A program made the position numbers and the translations under genes. From Candidatus Gastranaerophilales bacterium (lineage in GTDB: Bacteria; Cyanobacteriota; Vampirovibrionia; Gastranaerophilales; Gastranaerophilaceae): a DNA stretch of 54,334 bases. The stretch covers positions 1-54,334 of the forward strand of contig CALVGZ010000015.1 in NCBI GenBank assembly GCA_944327225.1. The letters run 5' to 3'. The notes under the pieces are model-generated. The model did no database searches. It worked only from the letters and a program-made list of their open reading frames with translations, and was not told where the DNA came from. Of the stretch, positions 4,908-40,015 are shown piece after piece (positions within the stretch are counted from its first letter, which is position 1; each line of letters starts with the position of its first letter).

Positions 4908-5350
4908 ATTTTATCCGGTGTTATATCTTTATTGAATTTTGAAGCAAAGGTTTCTAAGAATTTAATAAAATTATTTTCGGGAAGTTTTTTGACCTCTTTT
5001 TCTTCTTCTTGCGGCTGATTTATAATGATTAGAACCTCGTCTTTTGCTGCCATTTTGAGATTATTTCTTGCGATTGATTCAACTTTATACATTGATGAGA
5101 AATTTTTAATTTCGTTTTTTAGATTTTTGTTTCTCGTTTCTGCCTGTGTTTTTAATTCTTGTGCTTTGATTATTTTTGTTTGGTATACGACAATTTTTGC
5201 CAAATTTAACAAGGCGGAATAGCTGATTTGAAAAACGCATAATAAGAGTACAATAGTAAGAAAAGAATGGTAAAATCTGACTTTTCTTATTTTCTTTTTT
5301 TGTTGCTTTTGAACCCTTGTTTTTAAATTCATATATTTTGTATTCGCCAT
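4898..5350 (-). CDS. FtsB/DivIC-family septum formation protein
   Basis: 150 residues with the FtsB/DivIC layout. A basic cytoplasmic N-terminus (residues 1-26) is followed by one transmembrane segment at about 27-50, a coiled coil at about 55-90, and the conserved tail ARNNLKMAAKDEVLII at about 95-112, which matches the usual A...L.M...GE..... pattern. These bitopic proteins bridge FtsL and FtsQ in the divisome. The last 35 residues are a Lys/Glu-rich extension. It follows the asparaginase-like gene after 36 bases. Which of FtsB or DivIC it represents cannot be told from sequence alone. Confidence 0.8.
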   Translation of the reverse strand: MANTKYMNLKTRVQKQQKKKIRKVRFYHSFLTIVLLLCVFQISYSALLNLAKIVVYQTKIIKAQELKTQAETRNKNLKNEIKNFSSMYKVESIARNNLKMAAKDEVLIIINQPQEEEKEVKKLPENNFIKFLETFASKFNKDITPDKISE

Positions 5351-5386
5351 AAATTTATTTTAACTTAAATTTCATCTTGTGTTTAT

Positions 5387-6322
5387 TCAAATTTTAAATT
5401 CGTAACAATATTTTGCAGTTATTTCATTTTGTTGATTGTATTCAAATTCTTCAACTTTACTTTTAACCCATTTTAATTTGTTTAATATATCCATTGTTAT
5501 TAATTTTCTTGCATAATTATTATTTTGTGTTAGTTTTATTAAAAGGATTTTTTCTTCTTTAAAATTGTAAATCAATATAAAACCACCTGCACCAACTTTA
5601 GCAAAAAGTTTTTTATGTGAAAGTTTTATAATTTCGCTGTCGAGTCTGTCATATCCGCCGTATACGTCGGGGTTGTTTATTATTGATTTAATTAATATAT
5701 TATATTTTTTATTACTGAAAAGATTGAAATATGATTTTATGATGTTTTCTGCACTTAATCCCCAAAGAGGTGTTGAGCATCCGTCTTTAGTCGGATATGG
5801 ACTTTTGAAGCCTGAAAGTTCAAATTGTTTTTGATAAATTAATTTTTGAATTGGATGTTCGTATGAAGTATAGTTTTTTAAGCTATATCCCAGATATTTT
5901 GACATAGCAAGCATCATTAAATGTTTTGCTGAGCAATTATTGTGAAATTTTGTTTTTTTACCTTTAAAATTTCTTTTATCCAGTGGTTCATCCGGTTTTA
6001 AGATAAAATCCGAAACTTTAAGTTTTAATTTTTTTGTCAGGTTTTTTATTATTTTGATGTGTTTTATACTGCCTGCATGTGAGGCACAAAAAATTGCCAT
6101 TTCTTTTTCGGAGAGGTTATAATCTTGAATGATATTATAATCACAAATAATACTTGCTTGTAGCGGTTTCGCCAAGGATCGCATAAAGAAAATATTACTT
6201 GGGTCTTTACCTTTGTATTTATATATTCCGTTTTTATCTGCTAAATAGATACTTCCATAGTATTCGCAATCTATAATATCATTTCTCTTGGTAGTTAAAA
6301 GGATTTCAGGCTTGTTATTCAT
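5387..6322 (-). CDS. Asparaginase II-family protein (PF06089 type)
   Basis: 311 residues. Family motifs in order: RSLAKPLQAS at about residues 49-58, CASHAGS near 79, HNNCSAKH near 129, and GCSTPLWG near 181. Asparaginase II proteins of the Rhizobium etli ReAV type hydrolyse L-asparagine to aspartate and ammonia, using a Ser/Lys/Cys site unlike the E. coli enzymes. Here the usual NCSGKH reads NCSAKH, a small change beside the active-site region. It overlaps the upstream MshEN-like gene by eight bases, so the two are translationally coupled. No signal peptide is present, so a cytoplasmic location is expected. Confidence 0.82.
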   Translation of the reverse strand: MNNKPEILLTTKRNDIIDCEYYGSIYLADKNGIYKYKGKDPSNIFFMRSLAKPLQASIICDYNIIQDYNLSEKEMAIFCASHAGSIKHIKIIKNLTKKLKLKVSDFILKPDEPLDKRNFKGKKTKFHNNCSAKHLMMLAMSKYLGYSLKNYTSYEHPIQKLIYQKQFELSGFKSPYPTKDGCSTPLWGLSAENIIKSYFNLFSNKKYNILIKSIINNPDVYGGYDRLDSEIIKLSHKKLFAKVGAGGFILIYNFKEEKILLIKLTQNNNYARKLITMDILNKLKWVKSKVEEFEYNQQNEITAKYCYEFKI

Positions 6323-34317: not shown

Positions 34318-34854
34318 ATGGCAAAATTACTTGGAAGCAGTTTGTTTACCGGTGCGATTTCCGGTTTAAATTCTAATTATTTACTTATGTTAAACGGTGG
34401 TACAGGCTTAACTTTGGATAATTTGTTAAATTTATCTTCCGAAAATTTAAATTATTCTGTTAATCAGTCTTTTAGAAGTTATATGATGACTAATTTTAAT
34501 CAAATTGATATTGATGGCGATGGTACAATTTCACAAGAGGATTTAACTGGTTATACGACAAAATTACAGACTCAGGGCATGACATATAACGAACTTTCCC
34601 AGCTATGTTCAAGCGGCGGCACTATGTCAAGTCTTTTAGATACGGTTTTATCCAACTTTAATGAAATAGATACAAATCATGATGGAAGGGTTACACAAAG
34701 CGAAATAAATGCTTATCGTATCAATGAAGAAATAAAAGAAGTTAAAGAAAAGTATCCTAAGATTGATCCGACAAAGATGTCAATGTTCTATGAGACAGAT
34801 ACTTCAAATGATACTACGAGTTCTACTGATAACGATGACAAAGTATTTAAATAA
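34318..34854 (+). CDS. EF-hand calcium-binding protein
   Basis: 178 residues. Two EF-hand loops: DIDGDGTISQED at about 62-73 and DTNHDGRVTQSE at about 119-130. The second has the full canonical set (D, N, D, R, T, E); the first ends in D rather than E. The N-terminal 50 residues are rich in Ser, Leu, Asn and Gly (GSSLFTGAISGLNSNYLL), and the C-terminal 30 residues are Ser, Thr and Asp-rich. No signal peptide is seen. Calcium-dependent regulation or a surface role is possible. It is tail-to-tail with paralogue P1. Confidence 0.75.
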   Translation: MAKLLGSSLFTGAISGLNSNYLLMLNGGTGLTLDNLLNLSSENLNYSVNQSFRSYMMTNFNQIDIDGDGTISQEDLTGYTTKLQTQGMTYNELSQLCSSGGTMSSLLDTVLSNFNEIDTNHDGRVTQSEINAYRINEEIKEVKEKYPKIDPTKMSMFYETDTSNDTTSSTDNDDKVFK

Positions 34855-34927: not shown

Positions 34928-35764
34928 TTATGCTAACTTAATTGTTGAGCTTTGAATTTGTGAGCTTACTGCCTCTCCTACTGATTGTAGTTCTTGGCTG
35001 ATTGCTTCCATTTGCGATTCTACATCGGATTGTTCAAGATCGAGCATCGTTTCTTCATCGTTTACATCTTCTTCGAGCATCGCAAGTTCATCTTCATAGA
35101 ATGTTTTGTAATTGTCGGTTTCTTCAGTGTATTCTAGTTGTGCGTTTTCTTTTTCCATCTGGATATTGGATAATTCCGAATTGATAGTTGATTCTAATGA
35201 AGAAATTGTTTCTTTGGTTATGCTTGATAGTTCCGGTAAATCATATTTACCTATTATTTCGGTAAAATCGTATTCGCTAAATCTTTGCAAATCTTCGGCA
35301 TCTATGGTTTTTTCTACCGGATCATTGTTTTCATCATAGTCGTAGTATGTATATTTTGTTCCGTCGTCACTGATATCTAAATCTTTGTATTTAAGAGCTG
35401 TTCCGTCGCTTAGTATTATTCTGCCACCATCTACGGTTCCGGCATACTCGCCATTATTTGTCGGTTCAATTGCAATTCCACCTGCTACTCCTGCTGATGA
35501 TGTTCCTTCTGCAATTTCCTTTGCAATTCTTAAATAACTTGTCAGTGCTTTTCTGTTTTCTTCAAGTTTGTCAATTGTTTCGTTATAAGTTAATTTTAAC
35601 GGTGTAATTGCCTGACTTTGTTCATTTTGAATTACTGCTGTTTCGTATTGTTTTCTTCTTGCCAGTTGTCTTTTTTCACGTGAAATTTGTAAATCACGCA
35701 TTTGATACTGGGCATGTGATTGTTTTAAAACCCTTTTTCTTAATGTAAGTGTTACCCACCCCAT
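34928..35764 (-). CDS. Coiled-coil paralogue P1 (MGWVTL family), with inserted beta domain
   Basis: 278 residues. The N-terminal 45 residues (start MGWVTLTLRK; LQISREKRQLARRKQYE) and the C-terminal 70 (FYEDELAML, VESQMEAISQEL, STIKLA) are nearly identical in P2 and recognisable in P3. The ends are charged coiled coil. Between them P1 has an insert of about 110 residues rich in Gly, Asp and Tyr (GGRIILSDGT, DDGTKYTYYDYD), probably beta structure. No signal peptide or membrane helix. GAGAAAGAGGT lies upstream. I do not know the function. Confidence 0.75.
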   Translation of the reverse strand: MGWVTLTLRKRVLKQSHAQYQMRDLQISREKRQLARRKQYETAVIQNEQSQAITPLKLTYNETIDKLEENRKALTSYLRIAKEIAEGTSSAGVAGGIAIEPTNNGEYAGTVDGGRIILSDGTALKYKDLDISDDGTKYTYYDYDENNDPVEKTIDAEDLQRFSEYDFTEIIGKYDLPELSSITKETISSLESTINSELSNIQMEKENAQLEYTEETDNYKTFYEDELAMLEEDVNDEETMLDLEQSDVESQMEAISQELQSVGEAVSSQIQSSTIKLA

Positions 35765-35803
35765 AATAATACCTCTTTCTCTTTTATAAACGTGTTTTTA
35801 ATA

Positions 35804-35821
35804 TCCCTACGTTTTAATAAA
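35804..35821 (-). promoter_or_regulatory. P1 copy of the shared element TTTATT-N5-GTAGGGA
   Basis: Minus-strand sequence TTTATTAAAACGTAGGGA, 40 bases before the P1 ATG. An AGCAAT block lies 18 bases further upstream, in the same register as in P2. It looks like a promoter (-10-like TTTATT) with a conserved start-region GTAGGGA. Confidence 0.5.
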
Positions 35822-35855
35822 GATTTTTTGAGGTGAGAAATTGCTAATTTTTATT

Positions 35856-36395
35856 TTAACAGTTTACAAAACTTAATAATTCAAGACAAACTCTGCCATA
35901 TTTCTTGCTTTTAAGGATATTTAGCATGGAATTATTTTTTGTTAAAATATCTGTAAAATTTGTTTTATGTATATTGTCATATTCAATAACAATTATACCT
36001 TTATTGTCTATAAGCTCGGTTGCTTTTTGTATAATTGGTTCATAGTTTTCTTGCCATGGCGGATCTATATATATTACGTTAAATTTTTGATTTGTTTTAA
36101 AATTCAGTGCATTTGTTATAATGAGGTTTGGTTCTTGTTTAATTTTTGAGTAGTTCTTTTTGATTAATTTTGCCGTTCTTGGATTTATTTCAATTTCTGT
36201 TACATTATAACCTCTTGATAGGGCTTCTAGTCCCATAATACCGCTTCCTGCAAACATATCTAAAAAAGAATTTCCGTTTTTATAATATGGCATTAAAATA
36301 TTAAAGACGCTTTCTCTAACTTTAGATAAAGTTGGTCTTGCATTTTTAGGTATTTCGATTTTACTACCTTTATATTGCCCGCCTGTCAGATACAA
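35856..36395 (-). CDS. rsmD: 16S rRNA (guanine966-N2)-methyltransferase
   Basis: 179 residues. It methylates G966 in the 30S head. Order: YLTGGQYKGSKIEIPKNARPT-like RNA-facing start, SAM motif FLDMFAGSGIMGLEALSRG at about 43-61, and the catalytic motif IDPPW near residue 114 (DPPY/W type). Length is normal. coaD, the common partner, is not present. It is transcribed divergently from the reductase gene at 36428. Confidence 0.92.
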   Translation of the reverse strand: MYLTGGQYKGSKIEIPKNARPTLSKVRESVFNILMPYYKNGNSFLDMFAGSGIMGLEALSRGYNVTEIEINPRTAKLIKKNYSKIKQEPNLIITNALNFKTNQKFNVIYIDPPWQENYEPIIQKATELIDNKGIIVIEYDNIHKTNFTDILTKNNSMLNILKSKKYGRVCLELLSFVNC

Positions 36396-36427
36396 TTTTC
36401 ATCTCCTTTTATTATCCTAAATTTATC

Positions 36428-37792
36428 ATGAAAAAAATAGTAATAATAGGCGGTGGTGCAGCCGGTGCAAAGGCTGCTTCAAAATCAAAACGTCTTAATC
36501 CTCAAAATCACGTTGAGCTTTACACAAGGGATGAAAATATTTCAATTTCTTTGTGTGGATTACCTTATTATATTGAAGGTTCTGTAGATGATGTAAAAAA
36601 ATTAATTATAAGAACACCTCAGGATTTTATTAATATGGGAATTCCAGTGTTTTTAAATCATACTTTGGAAAACATTATCCCTGAGCAGAATTGTGTTCTA
36701 ATTAATGGTAATCATATTTTTTATGATGAATTGATATTGGCACTAGGTGCTGATGTAAATATTCCAAAAATTGAAAATATTTTTGCAAATAATGTTTTTA
36801 CCTTGAGAAGTATTGAATCTGGAGTTAAAATAAGAGAAAAAATGTTATCTTCGAAATCTGTTATTCTCCTGGGTGCCGGTTATATTGGAATTGAACTTGC
36901 TGAAGCTTTTATTAAAAACGGTCTGGAAGTAATAATTGTTGAAGCTAGAGAGCGTATCGCATCAGATTTCGACGAGGATTTTTCTAAATTAATTCAAGAT
37001 GTAATTATTTCAAAATGCAATTCCAAATTGCAGACTTATTATAATGAAAACGCAGTTAAAATAATTGTTGATGAAAATAATAATTTTAAGAGTTTGATAA
37101 CTGAATCCGGAAAAGAATTCTTTGCTGATTTTTGTGTTTTAAGTACGGGTGCTAAGCCAAATGTTGAAATTGCAAAAAAATGCGGAATTAAATTAGGTGT
37201 AACCGGTGCGATAGAAGTTGATAACAGAATGAGAACAAATATAAAAAATATTTTTGCTTGCGGTGATTGTACTCAAAAATATGATATTGTAACCAGAGAG
37301 CCTGCGTATCTTGGACTCGGCACAATAGCTAATAAAGAAGGCAGGGTTGCGGCAATTAATGCGACTTGTGGCAAGGATTTTGAAATTTTTGACGGCATTT
37401 TGACCTCTGTTATTACACGTTTTTTTGATTATACAATTTCTAAAACCGGATTAACTTTCCAAAAGGCTGTAGAATATTCTAAAAAAGTAAACCTTGAACC
37501 AATAAGTACTGTTGTAACCAAGAAAGATAAAGCCAGTTATATGCCAACAGCAAGTGAAATGACTTTAAAATTAGTAGCTGATAAAAGGAGTGGTGAGATT
37601 TTAGGGGCTCAAAGTATAGGTTGTGTCGGAAATGTCGCTCAAAGAATTAACACAATAACCTCTGCTTTAAGAGCAAGACTTACTGTTGATGAGTTATTAC
37701 ATTTGGATTTACCCTATGCACCGCCATATTCAAGTTCTATCGATCCCATTTTAACTGCCGCATATAAATTAAAAGAACAGATAAAAAAATAA
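36428..37792 (+). CDS. CoA-disulfide reductase / NADH oxidase-family flavoprotein
   Basis: 454 residues. FAD motif GGGAAGAKAASK at 8-19, catalytic cysteine C43 in SLCGLPYY, NAD motif GAGYIGIELAEAF near 153, FAD segment FACGDCTQ near 275, and a dimerisation domain with PYAPPYSS near 430. The single cysteine and the C-terminal domain fit the Cdr/Nox/Npx group, which reduces CoA disulfides or oxygen. No rhodanese domain follows. Which substrate is used cannot be told. It probably protects against oxidants. It ends at a terminator shared with P2. Confidence 0.85.
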   Translation: MKKIVIIGGGAAGAKAASKSKRLNPQNHVELYTRDENISISLCGLPYYIEGSVDDVKKLIIRTPQDFINMGIPVFLNHTLENIIPEQNCVLINGNHIFYDELILALGADVNIPKIENIFANNVFTLRSIESGVKIREKMLSSKSVILLGAGYIGIELAEAFIKNGLEVIIVEARERIASDFDEDFSKLIQDVIISKCNSKLQTYYNENAVKIIVDENNNFKSLITESGKEFFADFCVLSTGAKPNVEIAKKCGIKLGVTGAIEVDNRMRTNIKNIFACGDCTQKYDIVTREPAYLGLGTIANKEGRVAAINATCGKDFEIFDGILTSVITRFFDYTISKTGLTFQKAVEYSKKVNLEPISTVVTKKDKASYMPTASEMTLKLVADKRSGEILGAQSIGCVGNVAQRINTITSALRARLTVDELLHLDLPYAPPYSSSIDPILTAAYKLKEQIKK

Positions 37793-37815
37793 AAAGTGCC
37801 CGATAGGGCACTTTT
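37791..37815. terminator. Bidirectional terminator between the reductase gene and P2
   Basis: Stem AAAAGTGCCC / GGGCACTTTT with loop GATA. It overlaps the reductase stop codon and serves P2 on the other strand. Confidence 0.88.
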
Positions 37816-37851
37816 AAAGTTACACCATATTTGTTTTACTTGGTTATTTTA

Positions 37852-38382
37852 TTATGCTAATTTAATTGTTGAATTTTGGATCTCTGTGCTTACTGCTTCG
37901 GATACAGCCTGCATTTCTTGGCTTATTGCTTCCATTTGTGATTCAACTTCTGTTTGTTCCATATCAAGCTGAGTTTCCTGGTCGCTTGCTTCTTCTTCTA
38001 TCATTGCAAGTTCGTCTTCATAAAATGTTTTTGTTGAATCAACTTGTTCGGTATAATCTAGCTGATAGTTAGATAATTCCATTTGAAGATCACTTATTTG
38101 TCCGTCAAAATCTTCTGTTGATTCTGTTTCGCTATCATTTGCAGCCTTTTTCTGTTCTCTTAGATCTGATATTTGATCCATAATGCTTTGTCTATTTGCT
38201 CTGTATTCTTCTTTAATTGGCATTAGTGCTTGTTCTTGTTGATTTTGAACAGATGCTGTTTCGTATTGTTTTTGTCTTGCGAGTTGTCTTTTTTCACGCG
38301 AAATTTGTAAATCTCTTAATTGATAATAGGCGTGAGACTGTTTAAGCTCCCTTTTTCTTAATGTAAGTGTAACCCATCCCAT
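37852..38382 (-). CDS. Coiled-coil paralogue P2 (MGWVTL family)
   Basis: 176 residues. Residues 1-45 and the C-terminal 70 match P1 almost residue for residue, including MGWVTLTLRK, LRDLQISREKRQLAR, FYEDELAM, VESQMEAISQE and STIKLA. The middle is short, Gln/Ser/Asp-rich coiled coil, without the P1 insert. It is the minimal form of the family. It is highly charged with no signal peptide. GGGAGAAAGAGG lies before the start, and the shared promoter-like element lies 87 bases upstream. Confidence 0.75.
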   Translation of the reverse strand: MGWVTLTLRKRELKQSHAYYQLRDLQISREKRQLARQKQYETASVQNQQEQALMPIKEEYRANRQSIMDQISDLREQKKAANDSETESTEDFDGQISDLQMELSNYQLDYTEQVDSTKTFYEDELAMIEEEASDQETQLDMEQTEVESQMEAISQEMQAVSEAVSTEIQNSTIKLA

Positions 38383-38468
38383 AGTAAAACCTCTTTCTCC
38401 CTTGTTTAATTTTTCGTGTAAATTCGTGTAATGTTTTATTATTATGTAAGATAAATTTAATTTAAAAT

Positions 38469-38486
38469 TCCCTACACTGTAATAAA
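38469..38486 (-). promoter_or_regulatory. P2 copy of the shared element TTTATT-N5-GTAGGGA
   Basis: Minus-strand TTTATTACAGTGTAGGGA, with AGCAAT 18 bases further upstream. It matches P1 across about 45 bases without gaps. It lies 87 bases before the P2 ATG, leaving a long AT-rich leader. Confidence 0.5.
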
Positions 38487-38636
38487 CAATTTTTGTTTTG
38501 AAAAATTGCTTATTTTTAAAATTTTACGTTACAAAATTTAACAAAATTTTCTAAGGTGCCGTATTTATCCATACTTTACTATGGCAAAAAAGAAAGAAAT
38601 TTTGCTTTGTTGATTTTATTTTGTTGTATTTTTAGA

Positions 38637-38888
38637 TTAGCACAATGATATAATCGTGCTTTTTTTGCTCAAAATACTGAAGTCGTATAAAACTTCTTCC
38701 TTGTATAAATTGAGTTCATCTTTCAGATAAAAATCTTTTAGATTTTTATCATCTTTTTTTGTACGATTTATATCGTACAATGTCTCAAATTTCCTAAAAT
38801 TCCTTGAATAAGTTAGTTCAAGTAATTTAGAGACAACATTCCTTTCGCATTCGCTTTTTTTGCGATTGCTTTTTCCATGCAATCCCAT
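38637..38888 (-). pseudogene. P4: divergent or decaying member of the MGWVTL coiled-coil family
   Basis: An 83-residue frame starting at ATGGGATTG, with GGGGAG 12 bases upstream. Aligned without gaps to P1-P3, it keeps M1, G2, R9, K10, L25, S28, R29 and R32, and later has FYLKDELNLYKEE in place of FYEDELAM.EE. The usual C-terminal VESQMEAISQE part is missing, and the internal W, T and L positions are lost. It has the shared promoter-like element 38 bases upstream. Two perfect hairpins occur inside the frame. It looks truncated and relaxed; it may instead be a real, specialised member. Confidence 0.5.
38726..38780. repeat. Two adjacent perfect inverted repeats inside P4
   Basis: GATAAAAATC / GATTTTTATC around a TTTTA loop (38726-38750), and TTGTACGAT / ATCGTACAA around TTAT (38759-38780). 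Together they could fold into a strong two-hairpin RNA on either strand. A third, weaker hairpin with a T tract on the plus strand is at 38639-38667. Confidence 0.7.
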
Positions 38889-38925
38889 AAATACAATATA
38901 CTCCCCTTTTTTGTGTGTTAAAAAT

Positions 38926-38943
38926 TCCCTACATTTCAATAAA
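38926..38943 (-). promoter_or_regulatory. P4 copy of the shared element TTTATT-N5-GTAGGGA
   Basis: Minus-strand TTTATTGAAATGTAGGGA, followed by AATTTTTAAC as in P2. An AACAAT block is in the same register as AGCAAT of P1 and P2. It lies 38 bases before the P4 ATG. Confidence 0.5.
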
Positions 38944-39012
38944 GTATTTTTTTAAAAAATAATTGTTATAATTTTAAAAAATACTTAATATTTCTTTAAA
39001 TATTTTTTGTTA

Positions 39013-39018
39013 TATAAT
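39013..39018 (+). promoter_or_regulatory. -10 box immediately before a start codon (leaderless promoter)
   Basis: A perfect TATAAT lies six bases before the ATG at 39025, with no ribosome site between. Transcription would start at or within a base of the A of ATG, giving a leaderless mRNA. Confidence 0.5.
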
Positions 39019-39024
39019 CTAAAC

Positions 39025-39555
39025 ATGAAACATATTATTGTAATATCCGGTAAACAATTCAGTGGAAAAGACACACTTGCTCAAATTCTTTTGGAAAAAC
39101 TCGATGGTTATAGAAGGATTGGCTTGGGGGATGCAATTAAATTTGAATATTCAAAGAAAAACAATATTCCTATCGATGAAATAATCAAAAATAAACATTT
39201 GTACAGAAATGATTTGATTGAGCTTGGTAATTGGGGTCGAAGTTTGGATGAATGTTATTGGATTAAAAATTTACTGGGATACGATAAAATCGTTGTTCCT
39301 GATATTAGGGTTAAGTTTGAAGCTGATTTTTTTAAAAAAGCAGGTGCTTTTTTAGTCCGTGTTGAGTCGGATTATCAAAATCGTTCCAAAAGAGGTGTTA
39401 TTGTCAGCAATTGTGACAAAACAGAGGTTGCATTGGATTTTTATGATGGTTTTAATATCGTAATTTATAATAATTCAACTTATTCTGATTTATTAAAAGA
39501 AGCCGACAAAGTTTTGCTTGCTTATACAAAATTTATTGAACGGTCAATTATTTGA
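39025..39555 (+). CDS. Small P-loop kinase (dNMP / phosphomevalonate-kinase-like)
   Basis: 176 residues from the ATG at 39025; a TTG further upstream falls inside the -10 region. The P-loop SGKQFSGKDTL is at about 8-18, with GLGDAIK near 33 and a basic lid RSKRGVIVSN around 120-130. The fold matches small nucleoside or phospho-substrate kinases such as deoxynucleotide monophosphate kinases and the animal-type phosphomevalonate kinase. The substrate is unknown. A leaderless start is likely. It sits between P4 and P3 but shares no strand or operon with them. Confidence 0.7.
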   Translation: MKHIIVISGKQFSGKDTLAQILLEKLDGYRRIGLGDAIKFEYSKKNNIPIDEIIKNKHLYRNDLIELGNWGRSLDECYWIKNLLGYDKIVVPDIRVKFEADFFKKAGAFLVRVESDYQNRSKRGVIVSNCDKTEVALDFYDGFNIVIYNNSTYSDLLKEADKVLLAYTKFIERSII

Positions 39556-40015
39556 AATTAAGTTTCGAACTTTCAATATCCGAGCTTATTTGTTCATTTA
39601 CTGATTCCATTTCGCTTCTCATTGCTTCAAGTTGCGATTCAACAGTGGTTTGTTCTTCTTGAAGTCGAGTTTCTTCGTCTGTAGCTGCTTCTTCAAGTTC
39701 GTTTAAGATATCATCATAATAATCATTTATATTTTGTTTTTCGTCTTGATAATCTTCATTTGCAGCCGAATAATTCATTTGCCATTCTGCGTACTCATCA
39801 GAGCTTATATCCGGTCTTGCATCTCTTATTTTTAGATATTCTGATTTAGCTTCGTTTAATTCTTGTTTTTTAAGTTTATTGTATATTGATTGTTCATAAG
39901 ACAAATTTCTTTGTATGCCACGAACCTGTCTTGACATTTGAAGATCTCGGAGTTCTAAACTGTTAACCCCGCTTCTCAAGGATAATTTTCTTAGGTTTAG
40001 TGTTACCCAGCCCAT
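39548..40015 (-). CDS. Coiled-coil paralogue P3 (MGWVTL family)
   Basis: 155 residues, more distant than P1 and P2. It keeps MGWVTLNLRK at the N-terminus, LRDLQMSRQVR, a Tyr/Asp/Glu-rich coiled coil, and the C-terminal block DEETRLQEEQTTVESQLEAM with SVNEQISSDIESSKL. It has no signal peptide. GAGG lies nine bases upstream. The shared TTTATT-N5-GTAGGGA element is absent; the upstream 180 bases are AT-rich with no match. It overlaps the 3' end of the kinase gene by eight bases on the other strand. Confidence 0.7.
   Translation of the reverse strand: MGWVTLNLRKLSLRSGVNSLELRDLQMSRQVRGIQRNLSYEQSIYNKLKKQELNEAKSEYLKIRDARPDISSDEYAEWQMNYSAANEDYQDEKQNINDYYDDILNELEEAATDEETRLQEEQTTVESQLEAMRSEMESVNEQISSDIESSKLNFK

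Follow-up and report, generated by a model that had tools for sequence, protein, structure and literature searches.

Predicted helical hairpin proteins with conserved ends in Gastranaerophilales: possible flagellin-like subunits of a second type III export apparatus

Gastranaerophilales are non-photosynthetic gut relatives of Cyanobacteria. The window analyzed here, a stretch of 54,334 nucleotides, is contig C15 of a 1.73 Mb genome of this order. It carries three related genes, P1 to P3, which lie on the minus strand with unrelated genes in between, as an earlier note on this DNA had described and as the open reading frames (ORFs) agree. The features considered are the following.

34318..34854, plus strand: EF-hand protein, convergent with P1 (Pfam EF-hand; synteny)
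34928..35764, minus strand: P1, 278 aa, predicted helix 2-86, beta insert ~92-166 and helix 184-277 (ORF, family searches, AF2, tree)
35806..35843, minus strand: promoter-like element upstream of P1
37852..38382, minus strand: P2, 176 aa, conserved ends and coiled-coil middle, P2-type found genus-wide (ORF, family searches, tree)
38471..38508, minus strand: promoter-like element upstream of P2
38637..38888, minus strand: "P4", conserved 83-aa gene with an intact ORF (synteny, hhalign)
38928..38965, minus strand: promoter-like element upstream of P4
39548..40015, minus strand: P3, 155 aa, the shortest member (ORF, family searches, synteny, tree), flanked by a kinase-like and a uridine-kinase-like gene (gene names from sequence inspection)

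P1, P2 and P3 retrieved each other in searches and are homologous across both ends, with the family consensus MGWVTLxLRK… / …VESQMEAISxE…STIKLA. In a 47-sequence alignment of the family M1, G2, W3, R9 and E156 were invariant, and near-invariance was seen at the S28 position and at the C-terminal I…L. The N-terminal block (MGW..L.LRK....SR..R) aligned in register from residue 1, and the C-terminal block (...VE.Q.EA...S..I..S.I.L) was found in the P1-P3 family with the C-block HMM and in the alignment; the N-block HMM gave no matches to reversed proteins and the C-block HMM gave two. The residues R9, K10, L25, S28, R29 and R32, earlier reported as fixed, are present in all three proteins. Of the C-terminus proposed as shared, VESQ(M/L)EA is present, but the following SS(T/K) does not hold for P2, which ends in NSTIKLA.

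Full-length family models matched 95 and 49 of 1,330 proteins and none of the reversed proteins. The wider search with the end blocks, suggested in the earlier note as a check, came out in their favor, as N- and C-block models run separately concurred on 67 of the 1,330 proteins. A chance likeness of P1-P3, or convergence of low-complexity coiled coils, has next to no probability. Glu/Gln-rich coiled coils do produce spurious weak matches, but the reversed-protein control of the full models, the independent recovery of both end blocks and the conserved synteny refute this explanation for P1-P3 and for a further paralogue on contig C6.

For the orthologues in six syntenic genomes, identity was determined over the first 50 residues (N50), the middle and the last 75 residues (C75), which resulted in 87/39/79% for P1, 90/41/80% for P2 and 81/70/87% for P3. 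The middles vary, as noted before, and the combination of conserved ends and variable middles is genuine and clearest in P1 and P2. Gene conversion keeping the ends of P1 and P2 alike was rejected, as third-position similarity within genomes was about the same as between genomes; the highest value for P1 versus P2, 72%, was found in the N-block of the window.

P4, earlier taken for a degenerate paralogue, has an intact reading frame and is 41-71% identical at the equivalent position in relatives. It lacks the C-terminal block, and comparison with the family profile revealed no similarity (hhalign probability 0.9%), which rules it out as a paralogue of P1-P3. The residues it has in common with them look coincidental. 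Nor are there four paralogues within ~5 kb, since only P1-P3 lie there; the true fourth, with both ends present, is located on contig C6, and relatives belonging to a wider superfamily are on contigs C3, C5, C17 and C19.

The family of P1-P3, here referred to as the MGW family, was present in 28 of 28 genomes of the genus. P1 clustered with P2 in the tree, as a recent P2 duplicate that has gained a beta domain. The C6-type formed a separate branch and has an OmpR-type response-regulator gene (identified by its sequence) directly downstream in three loci (L008, L051, L054), and at the P3-type position other genera have one or two family genes (L048-L050). The EF-hand gene stays beside P1 in the syntenic relatives read, with 84-92% identity, and its product is a possible functional partner of P1 within the same system. 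An arrangement resembling that of P1 and its EF-hand neighbor was seen on contig C9 (L103), where an EF-hand-like gene (4909-5538, minus strand) adjoins a coiled-coil gene (5689-6105, plus strand) that matches the C-block model.

The promoter-like element has the pattern CAAT-N18..20-TTTAT-N4..8-GTA[AG]G, which was derived from the sequences upstream of genes in the window and in L039-L043, L008 and L051. In addition to P1, P2 and P4, it precedes the C6 paralogue and an 89-aa gene ahead of a short superfamily member on contig C3; P3 and most long genes of the superfamily's MGxAASQ type are without it. In held-out loci, 14 of 19 element matches sit 40-160 nt before a family gene, with ~0.08 expected; the nominal P should not be taken as counting independent events, because the loci were chosen for holding family genes and are related by descent. 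The element was also observed upstream of two unrelated-looking genes, L125 11342-12316 and L152 18134-18415 (both minus strand), which are possibly further regulon members.

Beyond the MGW family, a superfamily was identified with the consensus MGxAASQARFLxLTARKSxxEYQ…(variable)…LDTExxAIxTEMESVxKVI…FKTF. The P1-P3 family matched its C-block with an hhalign probability of 88.7% (E 2.6e-6), and the alignment to its N-block was in register from residue 1 and weak. Proteins of a MGYAIFTARK type were matched by both models and bridge the two groups; as the N-block alone is weak, the link rests on the C-block and these bridging sequences. Every one of the order's 192 genomes was matched by the superfamily profile (E ≤ 1e-3), usually in many copies, with between 3 and 13 matches per genome among those listed (for most genomes the best 11 scored candidates). 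The window's genome has four long members (on C3, C5, C17 and C19) and one short member (on C3). In 109 other Cyanobacteriota no clear case was found, and one marginal match had an E of 1.7e-4.

Searches of Pfam, NCBIfam and PHROGs with P1-P3 and their relatives gave only sub-threshold coiled-coil noise, PDB sequences searched with both profiles gave nothing significant, and a limited literature search yielded no publications on this family. The earlier statement that no named family matches therefore holds for Pfam, NCBIfam, PHROGs and PDB sequences. By these comparisons no library searched describes the family, and more distant relatives are conceivable beyond the reach of any single family search. 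Between superfamily members, genes for a 270-aa protein (MSYKxDSYLVIANKF) and a ~90-aa protein were observed in one operon (L110 6585-7400 and 7586-7855, L111, L122), neither of which had a convincing Pfam match. In the window's genome a gene of the ~90-aa type also stands ahead of the short C3 member.

For each branch, a single protein was modeled as a monomer with AlphaFold2 (AF2): P1 and the MGMAASQ protein encoded on C19. The P1 model (mean pLDDT 95.7) consists of helix 2-86, the beta insert at ~92-166 and helix 184-277, so that the insert, earlier described as beta-rich, is so in the prediction. Read from secondary structure and alignments to hairpins, P1 is predicted to be an antiparallel long two-helix hairpin with both ends together at the base. 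Its top Foldseek matches were mostly flagellins, all below significance (best E 0.013), and in VIA-align flagellins, at Z 9-10, were level with generic hairpins (Z 9-11), many of these cytoplasmic; a structure search of BFVD gave no significant match. The C19 protein (mean pLDDT 88.2) was modeled with a large beta domain between two helices (2-46 and 283-357). Its best Foldseek match was a flagellar filament (E 8e-4, low TM-score), and in VIA-align 2 all of ranks 1-24 went to flagellar chains (FliD, FliC, FlgL, rod or hook; Z 10.0-6.3), bearing in mind that VIA-align re-orders candidates supplied by Foldseek. Unrelated chains reached Z ≤ 6.3, and FlgL (5yti) aligned with Z 8.2 and an rmsd of 2.5 over 120. 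A Z of ~8 may mean a common arrangement only; the weight lies on all 24 ranks being flagellar.

Two full FlhA genes are present in the window's genome, together with one FlhA C-terminal-like gene; in L059 (7292-8800, plus strand) a stand-alone protein corresponds to the C-terminal half of FlhA only (FHIPEP 321-656). One FlhA belongs to a flagellar-type cluster on contig C21, with a flagellin fragment at the start of that contig. Pfam assignments placed the genes of a second apparatus on three contigs, with FliE-FliF-unknown-FliH-FlhA on C8 (L058), FliMN_C-FliO-FliP-FliQ-FliR on C2 (L150) and a second FlhB on C19 (L099); scattered as it is, this second export apparatus looks complete in gene content. 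All 192 genomes of the order contained FHIPEP, the gate protein, and many of them had no strong flagellar-type match. Fourteen genomes without this match have one FliP each, and the window's genome and G011 have two. The MGW family was present, and a strong flagellar-type FlhA match absent, in the congeners G022 and G024 and in genera g26, g37 and g3, and the family is therefore unlikely to be the flagellar filament.

On C19 a single gene separates a superfamily gene from the second FlhB, 0.9 kb away, in L110, L111 and L112 superfamily genes lie within ~5-8 kb of the FliE-FliF-FliH-FlhA operon, and in L122 a superfamily operon lies 6-8 kb from an FlgE/F/G-D1 gene and a FliK-like gene. Of 17 stretches of 20 kb around second-type FlhA genes, 6 contained a superfamily member. 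As the genomes are related, this closeness to the gate operon is suggestive at best, and none of the export-gene clusters read contains P1-P3. Gate and superfamily are both universal in the order, so that their co-occurrence is uninformative there. Three genomes from another order of the class had the gate protein, in a different cluster, and no detected superfamily. Co-occurrence as proof of dependence on a type III secretion system (T3SS) was rejected on both grounds. In stretches from that other order (L147-L149) the FlhA-type gate gene adjoins an ATPase-like gene and a conserved ~880-aa gene, with no superfamily members in the stretch.

We tentatively propose that the proteins of the P1-P3 superfamily could well be flagellin-like and exported, as subunits of a second type III apparatus that does not serve motility, with export and assembly inferred. 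The conserved N- and C-terminal helices would pack together and form a base for polymerisation or docking, with the variable middle (nothing, a coiled coil or a beta domain) facing outward. The proteins would leave the cell, without a cleaved signal peptide, via the second apparatus (FliE-FliF-FliH-FlhA, FliMN-FliO-FliP-FliQ-FliR and FlhB), which the order would keep even in genomes without a flagellar FlhA. Polymerisation and a surface location are likewise presumed: the subunits might form or decorate a non-motility surface structure, replacing flagellin, cap and junction proteins. The suggestion of the earlier note, a shared partner for assembly or export and perhaps a surface-structure subunit, fits the predicted hairpin with its ends together, the axial-like larger members and the universal gate. 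The location of P1-P3 outside export clusters, the unspecific fold match of P1, the weak N-block link, the lack of a sequence match to axial families and the three genomes of the other order with a gate protein, though in a different cluster, and no detected superfamily speak against this reading and keep it tentative.

A role as cytoplasmic coiled-coil scaffold or adaptor, unrelated to secretion and with the universal export apparatus a coincidence, is rather improbable. It would suit the dispersed single genes that adjoin housekeeping genes, the lack of a signal peptide as seen by eye and the many cytoplasmic hairpins among the best structural alignments of P1; the fold of the C19 relative, which matches flagellar axial proteins, and the siting of related operons next to export or hook genes in several genomes argue against it. 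The proteins might otherwise be individually secreted adhesins or effector-like proteins that use the second type III apparatus, with the ends serving as export or chaperone signals and no polymerisation. The many divergent copies per genome and strongly variable middles agree with this, and a chaperone could then be encoded by the ~90-aa gene that neighbors the short member in L110, L111 and the window's genome. It is nevertheless unlikely, as both ends are long pairing helices, exceeding the needs of an N-terminal signal, and the C19 relative resembles axial proteins. That the family supplies extra components of a true flagellum is very improbable: some genomes, including that of the window, do have flagellar FlhA and flagellin as well, but the congeners and genera listed above have the MGW family without a strong flagellar-type FlhA match.

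A broader and doubtful possibility is that a second flagellum-type type III machine, retained where flagella have been lost, exists throughout Gastranaerophilales and has an outer part of flagellin-like hairpin subunits with interchangeable middles, which would make it a new kind of surface organelle. In published genomes, full flagellar gene sets were found in only three of nine (PMC3787301, PMC4040986), a single-scaffold relative was without filament, cap and junction genes and L/P rings (PMC3787301), and the reduced sets of flagella-less Melainabacteria were read as genome reduction or as an incomplete set (PMC3787301, PMC4040986). With gate proteins in all 192 genomes and a large flagellin-like family, a working second apparatus becomes a concrete alternative to genome reduction. 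The family also supplies candidates for surface proteins in gut bacteria known mainly from genomes.

Among known systems, needle or WXG100 identity was rejected, as no Pfam family match exceeded its cut-off. Like the needle, inner-rod and tip proteins of non-flagellar T3SS, which are helical hairpins exported and polymerised by the secretion system, the superfamily has short members (~106-110 aa); however, the second apparatus shares FliE, FliF, FliH and FliO with flagella, and the 106- and 110-aa members matched none of the needle, rod or tip families in Pfam. WXG100/ESX proteins share the small helical hairpin and a conserved W near the N-terminus, but W3 of the family sits in the first helix and not in the turn, and in Pfam only P3 gave a WXG100 match, sub-threshold at 11.5 bits versus a cut-off of 27.3 (E 0.38).

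The flagellar axial proteins (FliC, FlgL/HAP3, FliD, FlgE/FlgG) have paired conserved N- and C-terminal helices around a variable central domain, an architecture also predicted for the superfamily, and usually no cleaved signal peptide; they are the best structural matches of the C19 relative, for P1 they were level with generic hairpins, and a flagellar-type gate is present in the same genomes. They differ in that neither family nor superfamily matched Flagellin_N/_C, FlgL, FliD or rod/hook families in Pfam and NCBIfam, no ANNLAN-type rod/hook motif was seen in the aligned ends of the family, P1-P3 are dispersed single genes with single, much longer helices, and the family occurs in genomes without a complete flagellum as judged by the absence of a flagellar-type FlhA match. 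At most, the family would work like a flagellar axial protein, and by sequence it is not a member of that group. The truncated flagellar gene sets described for Gastranaerophilales (Di Rienzi 2013; Soo 2014; PMC3787301, PMC4040986) concern the same machine, with gate and basal-body genes and without filament, cap and junction; the difference is that here a working second apparatus with its own subunits is proposed.
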